A program made the translations under genes and the position numbers. Below the pieces are notes generated by a model that had not been told where the DNA came from, did not search any database, and saw only the letters and a program-made list of their open reading frames with translations. From Natronomonas moolapensis 8.8.11 (lineage in GTDB: Archaea; Halobacteriota; Halobacteria; Halobacteriales; Haloarculaceae), in assembly GCF_000591055.1 (NCBI RefSeq), contig NC_020388.1:620001-684000 (forward strand): a DNA stretch of 64,000 nucleotides. The letters run 5' to 3'. How positions within the stretch are numbered: the first letter of the stretch is position 1; each line of letters begins with the position of its first letter. Shown piece by piece: positions 6,315 through 43,161 of this stretch.

Positions 6315-6992
6315 GTGTTGTCGGTCGAGCTTCACGCACACTCGGAGTTGTCCTACGACGGGCGCGACCCGGTCGAGTTGCTTTTAGAGCAGGCCGAGGC
6401 GGTCGGACTCGACGCGCTCGCGGTCACCGACCACGACGAAATCGACGCCTCGTTGGCGGCGGCGGCGAGCGCCGAGGAGTACGGTCTCGTCGGCATTCCT
6501 GGCATGGAGGTATCCAGCGCCGCCGGCCACGTGTTGGCCCTCGGCGTCGAGGAGCTCGTGCCGGCGGGATTGAGCTACGATGCGACGCTCGATCGGATCG
6601 CTGCCCTCGGCGGGATCGCCGTGGTACCGCACCCGTTTCAGTCCTCGAGACACGGCGTCGCCGCCCACATCACCCGCGGGCAGCTCGCCGCGGCCGACGC
6701 GATCGAGGTGTACAACTCCCGGCTGTTCACCGGGCGGGCTAACCGCCAGGCCGAGCGCTTCGCCGCGGACCGCGAGCTCCCGATGACCGCCGGTAGCGAC
6801 GCCCACATCGCCGAGATGGTCGGGCAAGCGGTCACGGAGGTCGACGCCTACCACCGGAGCGCGGAGGGCGTCCTCGACGCCATCCGCGAGGGACGGACGA
6901 GCGTCGTCGGCAAACGGACCCCGTGGTTCATAAGCGTCCAACAGTTCGGCGGTGGCGTCAGGCGCCGACTGGCGTCGATGTGGCCGTGGTGA
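6315..6992 (+). CDS. PHP-domain metal-dependent phosphoesterase
   Basis: This 225-residue PHP (polymerase and histidinol phosphatase) domain protein contains the expected metal ligands: ELHAHSELSYDG at the N terminus, AVTDHDEID, GMEVSS, VVPHPFQ and AGSDAHIAEMVG. The family hydrolyses phosphoesters such as nucleoside 3',5'-bisphosphates or nucleotide ends; the substrate here cannot be told from sequence. The GTG start is chosen because the PHP core begins immediately after it and a TATA-like box lies about 26 bases upstream. The 3' end overlaps the next gene by GTGA, so the two are probably co-translated. Confidence 0.85.
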   Translation: MLSVELHAHSELSYDGRDPVELLLEQAEAVGLDALAVTDHDEIDASLAAAASAEEYGLVGIPGMEVSSAAGHVLALGVEELVPAGLSYDATLDRIAALGGIAVVPHPFQSSRHGVAAHITRGQLAAADAIEVYNSRLFTGRANRQAERFAADRELPMTAGSDAHIAEMVGQAVTEVDAYHRSAEGVLDAIREGRTSVVGKRTPWFISVQQFGGGVRRRLASMWPW

Positions 6993-40845: not shown

Positions 40846-41577
40846 TCAGGCGCCCTCGATGCGCGCCACGCGTCCACCGTCGACGGTCGCGAGCGCCCAC
40901 GCCTCCGGGAGGTGACCGTCGACGACGGCCTCCGGAACGAGCGGTGCTGGAACCGGCTGGTAGGCGTTGGCCTTCAGCTCCCGGACCGACGGAAACCGGC
41001 CGACGACTCGACCCGTCGAGCGCTTCTGGACCCGAAACCGGCCGTCCCCGTTTCGCCGGTAGGCATACTCGAAGGCGTCGGCCGACGGACACGAGAGGTC
41101 CTCGAGCGTCCCGACGGCGGCAGCCGCCTCGCCGTCGGCCTCGAGGACGAACCGCGTCCCCTCGCCGGTCACCCCGTCGGCCGGTTCCGCTCGCCACGTC
41201 GGAGGGTCGTCGGCGCGACAGCAGGCCAGCCCCGCATCGCCAGCCGGGAGGCGGTCAGGGGTGTTATAAAAGGTGCGACCCCGCTCGGTTTGGTCGGCCA
41301 CCCCGGGTGGATCGGTCAGTATCCCCCGGATCGCCGCCGCGTCCGCCGGGTGGGCGACGAAAAGTGCCGTTCGCCCGGCAGCGGCGGCGCTGCCGATCGC
41401 CTCGAGGAGTGCGGTCGGGTCCGGACGGCCGACGACGACGGAGAGCGACCCCGGAACGCCGATCCGGTCGGTCCGGCCGGTCGGGACGGCGATCGTCGCG
41501 CCGCCGCGGTCGCCGACGTCGTAACCACGCTCCGCGAGTGCAGAGCGGACGGTCTCGAGCCGCTGGGTGTGCGTCAT
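40846..41577 (-). CDS. Haloarchaeal hypothetical protein, 243 aa
   Basis: This is a soluble protein of 243 residues with no recognised motif. The N-terminal part (QRLETVRSALAERGYDVGDRGGATIAVPTGRTDRIGVPGSLSVVVGRPDPTALLEAI) looks like an alpha/beta domain with Gly-rich turns. The middle has two Cys (LACCRADD) and the end YAYRRNGDGRFRVQKRSTGRVVGRFPSVRELKANAYQPVPAPLVPEAVV. It converges on the 710-residue gene (50 bases between stops). It could belong to the same functional group, but only position supports this. Confidence 0.65.
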   Translation of the reverse strand: MTHTQRLETVRSALAERGYDVGDRGGATIAVPTGRTDRIGVPGSLSVVVGRPDPTALLEAIGSAAAAGRTALFVAHPADAAAIRGILTDPPGVADQTERGRTFYNTPDRLPAGDAGLACCRADDPPTWRAEPADGVTGEGTRFVLEADGEAAAAVGTLEDLSCPSADAFEYAYRRNGDGRFRVQKRSTGRVVGRFPSVRELKANAYQPVPAPLVPEAVVDGHLPEAWALATVDGGRVARIEGA

Positions 41578-41665
41578 GGGTGAAGAGCTTCGTCAGCGGT
41601 GAGACGACCTGTGAGCGTACGTCGAGAAGCGATCCGTCGAGTATCTGAGCTACCGGACGGAGTGA

Positions 41666-41824
41666 TCACGTGGCTGTAATCATGTCGAGGAGGTTCTGAA
41701 GCGAGTTGATTAACTCCTCGAGGAAGGGAACCAGCTCGGTCGGGTCGCCAGCCTCGGCAGCAGCGACGCCACTAAACAGGACCAAGGCCACGAGCGCCGC
41801 GAGCGATAACAGTGTCTGTCGCAT
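41666..41824 (-). CDS. Small secreted peptide, 52 aa
   Basis: The sequence is short but well formed. A signal peptide (MRQTLLSLAALVALVLFSG-VAAA, likely cut after AAA around residue 23) precedes about 29 residues with an amphipathic helix (ELVPFLEELINSLQNLLDMITA). No Cys. It lies just left of IS copy C, and its upstream region is partly replaced by the element 49 bases away. It could be a pheromone-like, antimicrobial (halocin-like) or membrane-associated peptide; I cannot choose. The codon use fits the genome. Confidence 0.55.
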   Translation of the reverse strand: MRQTLLSLAALVALVLFSGVAAAEAGDPTELVPFLEELINSLQNLLDMITAT

Positions 41825-41872
41825 ACACAAATGTTCTACTCACGTCATAATGAATGTTGGGCCGGCAAGCGC

Positions 41873-42570
41873 GACGGTGTTCAAATACGGATTGAAAGGT
41901 GAGGCGGTGCGTTTTCAAACTGATTTATGCCCGAAAACGACCGCCTCAGCGGCTGTTTAGACGAGATCAACGTAGAGTTCGTGGAGCGAGAAGCAACACC
42001 GAAGCTGTTGATGAAGCCCAGTATGCAGCTCCATCTCGCAGGATTATCGCTTTCGAATACTGTTTCGTTTCTTGAGGTATTCGGTGTTGACCGGGGTCGA
42101 TCCACCGTTCACAGCTGGGTTCACGAGGCCGATTTACAGCCGGAATCTGGTCGGTGCCCGAATCACGTTGCGGTCGATGAAGCCGTGATTCAACTTGACG
42201 ATGAACAATATTGGCTGTACGCCGCTGTCGATCCGGATTCAAACGATTTACTTCATACAAAGCTTGAACCGAGAAGAACGAACGTGGTCGCAGATCAGTT
42301 TTTCGCGGAACTCCGCGACAAACACGACGTGGATGACGCGATCTTTCTCGTCGATGAAGCGGTTCCGCTTCACCGAGCCTGTGACAAACACGACCTCGGC
42401 TTCAGATACGAACGACATAGAGATCGGAACAGCGTCGAACGTGTCTTTCGCGAGGTAACACGCAGAACTACCAGCTTCTCAAACTGTTTCAGCAACGCCA
42501 AAGCAGAAACTGCTGATAAGTGGCTCAGATCCGTTGCTTTCGCATGGAATCAGCGTATCTGAACACGAGG
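41873..42570 (+). mobile_element. ISH15-like IS6-type element, copy C (divergent), with target duplication
   Basis: A 698-bp element flanked by a perfect 8-bp direct repeat GCAAGCGC at 41865-41872 and 42571-42578. Its inverted repeats (GTGTTCAAATACG left, GTGTTCAGATACG right) differ from those of copies A and B (GTGTTCAGATAAG), and its transposase differs more, so it belongs to a related but separate lineage. It lies 32 bases before the 3' end of the tRNA-Gln gene. Confidence 0.88.
41927..42562 (+). CDS. ISH15-like IS6-family transposase (copy C)
   Basis: This 211-residue transposase has the same layout as copies A and B: LAGLSLSNTVSFLEVFGVDRGRS helix-turn-helix, then Asp in VAVDEAVIQL, Asp in FLVDEAVPLH and Glu in NSVERVFREVTRR. 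The DETVIRL and FLIDGSHSLK motifs of the others are changed here to DEAVIQL and FLVDEAVPLH; the catalytic acidic residues remain. Intact frame. Confidence 0.87.
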   Translation: MPENDRLSGCLDEINVEFVEREATPKLLMKPSMQLHLAGLSLSNTVSFLEVFGVDRGRSTVHSWVHEADLQPESGRCPNHVAVDEAVIQLDDEQYWLYAAVDPDSNDLLHTKLEPRRTNVVADQFFAELRDKHDVDDAIFLVDEAVPLHRACDKHDLGFRYERHRDRNSVERVFREVTRRTTSFSNCFSNAKAETADKWLRSVAFAWNQRI

Positions 42571-42602
42571 GCAAGCGCCAGGAGCCTCTCCTCGCCACGG
42601 AT

Positions 42603-42674
42603 AGTCCCGGGCGGATTCGAACCGCCGTCATGGGCTCCAAAGGCCCATATGATTGGCCACTACACCACGGGACT
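42603..42674 (-). tRNA. tRNA-Gln (anticodon UUG)
   Basis: A 72-base cloverleaf on the minus strand. The 7-bp acceptor stem AGTCCCG/CGGGACT is perfect; the anticodon stem TGGGC/GCCCA holds loop CTTTGGA with anticodon TTG at its centre; the T-arm has GGTTCGAATCC. CCA is not encoded. It stands between IS copy C and the sirR-like gene. In haloarchaea glutamine tRNA is charged through GatCAB, whose C and A subunits are encoded at 10.2-11.7 kb. Confidence 0.95.
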
Positions 42675-42723
42675 TCATCTTGATCTAAAACGCTCCGGCA
42701 CAATAGCCTTACCCTTTCGGCGC

Positions 42724-43161
42724 TCAGTCGGCGGGTTCCGTGGGAACGTCGACTTCGAGCAGTTCGCACGCGTCCGTCTCGGCGTCGAAGCAGTCCGGAC
42801 AGCACTCGGCCCGGTCGATGATCGTATCGAGCCGCTCGGCGACCGTCTCGTCGATGACGCTCTCGAGCTGGCGGGCCTCGGCCTGGAACTCCTCGACTTC
42901 GAGGACCTCAACGAGGAACCGCTCGATGATACAGTACGTCTGCAGCGCGTCGCGGGCCCGTCCGAGCCCCTCGTCCGTCAATGAGACGCCTTTGTACTTT
43001 TCGTGTTCGGCGAGTCCCCGCGACTCGAGCTTTCCGATCATCTCGTTCGCACTCGCCGGGCTGACGCCGAGGTTGTCGGCGATATCCCCCGTCGACGCCG
43101 GTCCGTCGGTTTCGTCCTGAACGAGATATATGGTCTTGAGGTACTGCGCTTGCGTGTTCAT
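42724..43161 (-). CDS. DtxR/SirR-family metal-dependent regulator
   Basis: This 145-residue regulator has an N-terminal winged helix (MNTQAQYLKTIYLVQDETDGPASTGDIADNLGVSPASANEMIGKLESRGLAEHEKYKGVSLTDEG) and a dimerisation/metal-binding domain (YCIIERFLVEVLEVEEFQAEARQLESVI). It ends with three Cys (CCPDCFDAETDAC), replacing the SH3 part of larger DtxR proteins. In haloarchaea such proteins respond to iron or manganese. ATG at 43161 overlaps the ferritin-like gene stop, so both are one transcript, and the suf genes lie next to them. Confidence 0.9.
   Translation of the reverse strand: MNTQAQYLKTIYLVQDETDGPASTGDIADNLGVSPASANEMIGKLESRGLAEHEKYKGVSLTDEGLGRARDALQTYCIIERFLVEVLEVEEFQAEARQLESVIDETVAERLDTIIDRAECCPDCFDAETDACELLEVDVPTEPAD

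Follow-up and report, generated by a model that had tools for sequence, protein, structure and literature searches.

A minus-strand gene of Natronomonas moolapensis predicted to encode a secreted, acidic amphipathic peptide of 52 codons, with look-alikes in other haloarchaea

The minus strand of the window, the 64,000-nucleotide stretch of Natronomonas moolapensis 8.8.11 DNA analysed here, carries a small gene whose product is, on its sequence features, well supported as a secreted amphipathic peptide (Table 1). The sequence data support the reading frame, its signal-peptide features, the helix that follows, the presence of relatives of the same build in other haloarchaea and, in another genus, constraint on the helix. 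With respect to its use, a secreted membrane-active or self-associating peptide, perhaps an antagonistic one, is favoured with modest confidence. The fuller account, in which a real small gene encodes a Sec-exported acidic amphipathic helix that is likely antagonistic to, or membrane-active on, neighbouring cells, is offered as a tentative lead. The window belongs to a genome assembled as one contig of 2,912,573 bases and has a G+C content of 64.5%; the strain is described as having a single 2.9-Mb chromosome of 64.5% G+C and no plasmids (PMC3623002).

Table 1. Features of the peptide gene and its surroundings, in window coordinates
Feature	Coordinates	Strand	Basis or remark
Hypothetical protein, 243 aa	40846..41577	-	88 bp downstream of the peptide stop, same strand
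52-aa peptide gene	41666..41824	-	ATG at 41824, TGA at 41666-41668; coding-like GC, chance test
Putative mature peptide, residues 24-52, acidic amphipathic helix	41669..41755	-	moment, charge, predicted helix 28-51
Putative signal peptide, residues 1-23	41756..41824	-	sequence, rule scan; predicted helix 2-25
Candidate archaeal promoter (BRE/TATA-like)	41845..41861	-	-37 to -21 from the ATG; compared by eye
Left 8-bp target-site duplication GCAAGCGC	41865..41872	.
IS6-family insertion sequence, 698 bp	41873..42570	+	NF033587 match, E 2e-53; ends from copy comparison
IS6 transposase, 211 aa	41927..42562	+
Right 8-bp target-site duplication GCAAGCGC	42571..42578	.
tRNA-Gln(TTG)	42602..42674	-

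The 52-residue peptide proposed in an earlier sequence-only reading is borne out as a real minus-strand frame running from 41824 to 41666, with an ATG, 52 codons and a TGA; the plus strand of the same interval contains stops. Its translation is MRQTLLSLAALVALVLFSGVAAA followed directly by EAGDPTELVPFLEELINSLQNLLDMITAT, and the G+C contents at codon positions 1, 2 and 3 (0.64, 0.40 and 0.74) are coding-like. A rule scan was composed of an ATG or GTG start, a length of 45–65 aa, a signal-like start, a helix moment of at least 0.45 and a net acidic charge of at least 3. The window together with 18 stretches of 20 kb (424 kb of the same genome) was compared with 12 approximate dinucleotide shuffles (5.09 Mb). 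Signal-like frames of 45–65 codons number five in the genomic DNA and 18 in the shuffles. With thresholds fixed only after the peptide was known, the full feature set is found once in the genomic DNA, in the window peptide itself, and not at all in the shuffles. Chance is not expected to produce this combination. The peptide is not covered above threshold by any family of Pfam, NCBIfam, PHROGs or PADLOC: the first three return sub-threshold or chance-level matches only, and PADLOC returns none.

By rule, residues 1–23 or 1–25 make up a signal peptide, in which an arginine as second residue is followed by an extended hydrophobic core and then a cleavage motif, and the putative cleavage sites are an A-A-A ending at residue 23 or, alternatively, an A-E-A ending at residue 25. 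The remaining 27–29 residues contain no Cys, Lys or Arg, and the net charge from residue 24 onward is −6. The 18-residue hydrophobic moment of this mature part is 0.55, a value that 1000 shuffles of the same residues never reach, and AlphaFold2, run on the single sequence, predicts helices at residues 2–25 and 28–51 (mean pLDDT 81). Both the clean signal peptide and the Cys-free amphipathic helix of about 29 residues that had been read from the DNA are thereby upheld. The earlier description as a secreted amphipathic peptide stands at the level of sequence, whereas the signalling, membrane-active or halocin-like function attached to it gained no direct support.

From these features a simple route can be proposed. 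Sec would carry the peptide across the membrane, and signal peptidase would cleave it behind A23 or A25, leaving an acidic amphipathic helix free outside the membrane. Outside the cell, the hydrophobic face of the helix may act by membrane binding or by helix–helix assembly; our best guess is that neighbouring cells are the target of a small peptide with antagonistic or membrane activity. Many antimicrobial helices are cationic; the mature part here, in contrast, is anionic.

Peptides of the same build are found, sparsely, in other haloarchaea. A search of 392 genomes of the order matched G424 over the full length (E 4.7e-4) and G300 in part (E 0.009), and both matches proved to be standalone frames with a signal peptide, 58 and 55 aa long. 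A three-row profile searched over the 170 genomes of one family found G504 and then led to G489, G485 and G445; a seven-row profile over the same family added G488 and G200, and the frame in G059 comes from the window's own family (146 genomes). Standalone 54–59-residue frames of this build are thus present in at least nine other genomes, a minimum that reflects only about 20 examined profile matches at the signal end and leaves room for further members. They are distributed over eight of the 170 genomes and, counting the window's own, two of the 146. Most other profile matches cover just the signal-peptide end of longer frames. Including the window peptide, the standalone frames measure 52–59 aa. 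A G-x-A-A-A motif, assigned by rule and alignment, occurs in nine of the ten, with G-A-V-A-A in G059; none of the ten mature helices contains Cys, and they have net charges of −3 to −7 and moments of 0.41–0.61. A further look-alike, in G512 (locus L076), has a reading frame that appears broken near the signal peptide and was left uncounted.

A nine-row model built without the window peptide ranks that peptide first among 5,523 frames of its own genome (E 6e-11; next 0.11), with much of the full-length score deriving from the signal peptide. In the order-wide search of the 392 genomes with this model, the window peptide is matched over its full length at a per-genome E of 2.2e-9; among other non-members, the top match is partial, at 9.2e-6. 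A model of mature parts only also places it first (E 0.0033; next 0.14), although the peptides in that model had been recruited with the window peptide. Compared with single mature parts, its own mature part scores 31–45 with seven of ten short peptides. The scores for G115 (62 aa, of looser build and used only in this comparison), G300 and G504 are 26, 24 and 18, below the highest control of 35. The 62 control rows, 40 of them distinct, score 24 or less in all but one case, which scores 35; L199, from the G115 locus, stood among these controls. The window peptide seeded the searches that supplied the rows of the models, which makes the homology scores partly circular; they amount to support, not proof, of common descent, and amphipathic helices can also arise by convergence. 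In the favoured reading, the window peptide belongs to, or closely resembles, a sparse, fast-evolving family of standalone haloarchaeal mini-peptides.

The absence of homologous frames in relatives had been named as evidence against the peptide. Same-build frames do exist, as described above, and the 19 searched congeners have none: no match is seen in them at E ≤ 0.1, seven give weaker partial matches, and eight of the 19 genomes are less than 90% complete. Single-peptide scans of genome and viral contigs that combined a pattern with tblastn yielded nothing usable; nor did tblastn against plasmids and phages, with two chance-level partial matches in one run. These tblastn negatives are weak, since low-complexity filtering of short Leu/Ala-rich peptides may hide relatives. 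Synteny was also tried as a source of relatives and rejected: in 40 loci, taken around tRNA-Gln/DtxR or the hypothetical neighbour and in most cases with flanks of 1.5 kb, the only peptide that a ten-row model detects is the window's own copy.

The gene neighbourhoods were inspected for a partner. Co-occurrence with an immunity or receptor gene, which the sequence-only reading had put forward as a check, was not observed: no immunity, receptor, export, protease or regulator gene recurs beside the family, among neighbours of which some were run through Pfam. Immunity could, however, be encoded away from the peptide or need no gene of its own. No receptor gene adjoins the window peptide, whose neighbours are a tRNA gene, an IS6 element and a hypothetical protein without a family match. 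An ABC exporter lies near the G424 and G504 copies, yet on opposite sides, and was rejected as a partner; in G424, the duplicated sequence that lies between peptide and exporter contains a single N, a likely assembly join. A lipoprotein adjacent to the G059 copy was likewise rejected, as it belongs to a common family (19 plasmid records) and the peptide is present in none of the six plasmid loci opened; a homologue of this lipoprotein lies 4.6 kb from the G445 copy. A MacB-type ABC operon adjoins three copies in genus g49. Neither this operon nor the ABC exporter nor the lipoprotein is present beside the window peptide. The 243-aa neighbour has no match in Pfam, NCBIfam, PHROGs or PADLOC at the limits used. 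Its homologues occur in five of the 19 congeners and in one genome of another family; the peptide was not found within the flanks of these loci (up to 1.5 kb), and tRNA-Gln was not found at the congener loci.

Within g49, four genomes carry a relative. In three of them (G489, G488 and G200), the gene is found at a shared locus, flanked by a cyclic-phosphodiesterase-like gene and a CARDB/ABC ATPase/MacB-type operon (Pfam assignments on the G489 copy); in G489, some 2.8 kb of additional DNA separates the phosphodiesterase gene from the peptide. The neighbours in G485 differ. Over short stretches, with about 20 synonymous sites in the helix, dN and dS of the helix are 0.06 and 0.47 for G200–G488 (ratio about 0.13) and 0.13 and 1.75 for G200–G489 (about 0.07), and dS is saturated for G488–G489. 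In all three pairs, dN is lower in the helix than in the signal part. These values indicate purifying selection on the helix at the g49 locus, so peptides of the same build are true genes there. The pair G300–G504, with two synonymous and five non-synonymous changes, shows no visible constraint and is uninformative.

The main competing explanation, which we judge unlikely overall, is a membrane mini-protein: without cleavage, the signal-like segment would anchor the peptide, and the outer amphipathic helix would serve the producing cell itself as an accessory subunit that binds or regulates a complex of the membrane or envelope. The two consecutive helices of the AlphaFold2 model would suit such a protein, as would the want of a recurring export or immunity partner and the constrained, shared g49 locus beside the CARDB/ABC/MacB-type operon. 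Against an uncut anchor, the cleavage-type G-x-A-A-A motif is retained in nine of the ten members, and the signal segment is more variable than the helix. Also quite unlikely, in our estimate, is the most far-reaching form of the favoured secreted-peptide reading: that the window peptide forms, with its nine look-alikes, a single undescribed family of acidic mini-peptides, amphipathic or coiled-coil and exported by Sec, which haloarchaea gain and lose and use outside the cell against or between neighbours. Such peptides would be directly encoded, without a precursor, and among the smallest secreted ones in this role in Archaea.

That the frame is a chance or decaying one, functionless in N. 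moolapensis, is improbable. It would account for the 19 congeners without a match and for a plastic location, with a tRNA gene on one side, a hypothetical gene on the other and an insertion sequence adjoining. The shuffle test and the coding-like composition of the codon positions argue against it, as does the first rank of the window peptide in models made without it. In addition, the insertion of the IS6 element leaves 48 bp (41825–41872) upstream of the peptide ATG, and within them CCCAACATTCATTATGA begins 37 bp before that codon. By eye, the four g49 relatives have a AAACATCTTTT-type element at nearly the same distance from their ATG. The window element is a candidate archaeal promoter (BRE/TATA-like), and the similar spacing also speaks against a chance frame.

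A role as a signal that like cells perceive would fit the size, the Sec-type signal peptide and the standalone gene, but is more improbable still. No receptor, protease or regulator was found recurring among the neighbours, some of which were run through Pfam, and the peptide is present in only one of 20 searched genomes of the genus, a distribution ill-suited to a core signal.

The insertion sequence noted beside the peptide is real, an ordinary insertion that is incidental to the peptide. Its assignment to IS6 rests on the transposase, terminal inverted repeats and an exact 8-bp target duplication, all of which are present, with the outermost four bases of the two ends mismatching each other. 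The flanking duplications indicate that the element inserted between tRNA-Gln and the peptide, and the position of one duplication between IS6 and the peptide places the latter outside the element. At least 17 further full-length copies, 71–79% identical, and at least 17 partial matches are found in the same genome, both counts being lower bounds from 40 scored candidates of 59; the genome holds a large and diverse population of IS6 elements of the 690-bp class. Rfam over 41000–43000 returns the tRNA only. In G300, another IS6 element lies about 47 bp upstream of the peptide in the same orientation (L101, about 6798–6844, with the end placed by eye); no target duplication is seen, and its transposase is 40% identical to that of the window. 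The spacings of 48 and about 47 bp may be a coincidence, or both elements may have landed immediately outside a promoter. A block of 428 bp that includes the gene (L101 6418–6845; L103 6655–7082) is common to G300 and G504, 93.5% identical in otherwise different surroundings, suggesting that at least some members are mobile. One end of the block holds an inverted repeat with CTGCT...AGCAG ends (by eye) and resembles a small transposable element, so that the block is possibly a small mobile unit. That the window peptide is a passenger of IS6 or of a larger mobile unit, as the G300 spacing and the G300/G504 block might suggest, is highly improbable: for the insertion sequence it is largely refuted by the intervening target duplication. 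The other IS6 copies found in the genome also lack the peptide, and no second copy of the tRNA-Gln end occurs in the window (allowing up to three mismatches).

Few secreted peptides of Archaea are known, to our knowledge. The halocins HalH4, HalC8 and HalS8 and the haloarchaeal antagonist HmHapP/HFX_0892 are likewise secreted haloarchaeal peptides; they are described as cut from precursors, and the activity of the last depends on short α-helices (PMC12893001). The window gene, in contrast, comprises a signal peptide and a helix only. Release from a larger precursor does not apply here, as the 52-aa frame ends at the TGA at 41666. If members of the family act between cells, they would represent precursor-free, anionic archaeal peptides, unlike the halocins described in that paper (PMC12893001).

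Similar to the window peptide, phenol-soluble modulins and other bacterial amphipathic helical peptides are Cys-free amphipathic helices of 20–30 residues. The export route differs: modulins lack signal peptides and are exported by an ABC exporter, whereas the window peptide has a Sec-type signal. A seven-member profile of the family matches repeated helices of the designed antiparallel coiled coils PDB 8qae and 8qad (whole-chain E 6e-8 and 2e-4). This likeness is summed over the repeats, with no single stretch past the limit, and concerns designed proteins, not relatives; as a pattern match it is consistent with helix packing.

Frames of about 50 codons are often missed, and no description of such peptides was found among the matches listed from the open-access literature. 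The build of the family, a signal peptide followed by an acidic helix, can be searched for as a pattern and yields a small, inexpensive set of peptides for synthesis.

A second kind of small secreted peptide, of 80–83 aa and with a PP-rich linker, is observed in two other families, where at least four genomes carry it (G305, G189, G281 and G216; loci L213, L215, L216 and L221). These peptides share with the window peptide the same arrangement of signal peptide, linker and amphipathic helix; they differ in being longer and in having an extra helix segment and a Gly/Asn-rich tail. A four-row model of them ranks the window peptide first among the frames of its own genome, weakly (E 0.022; next 0.56).
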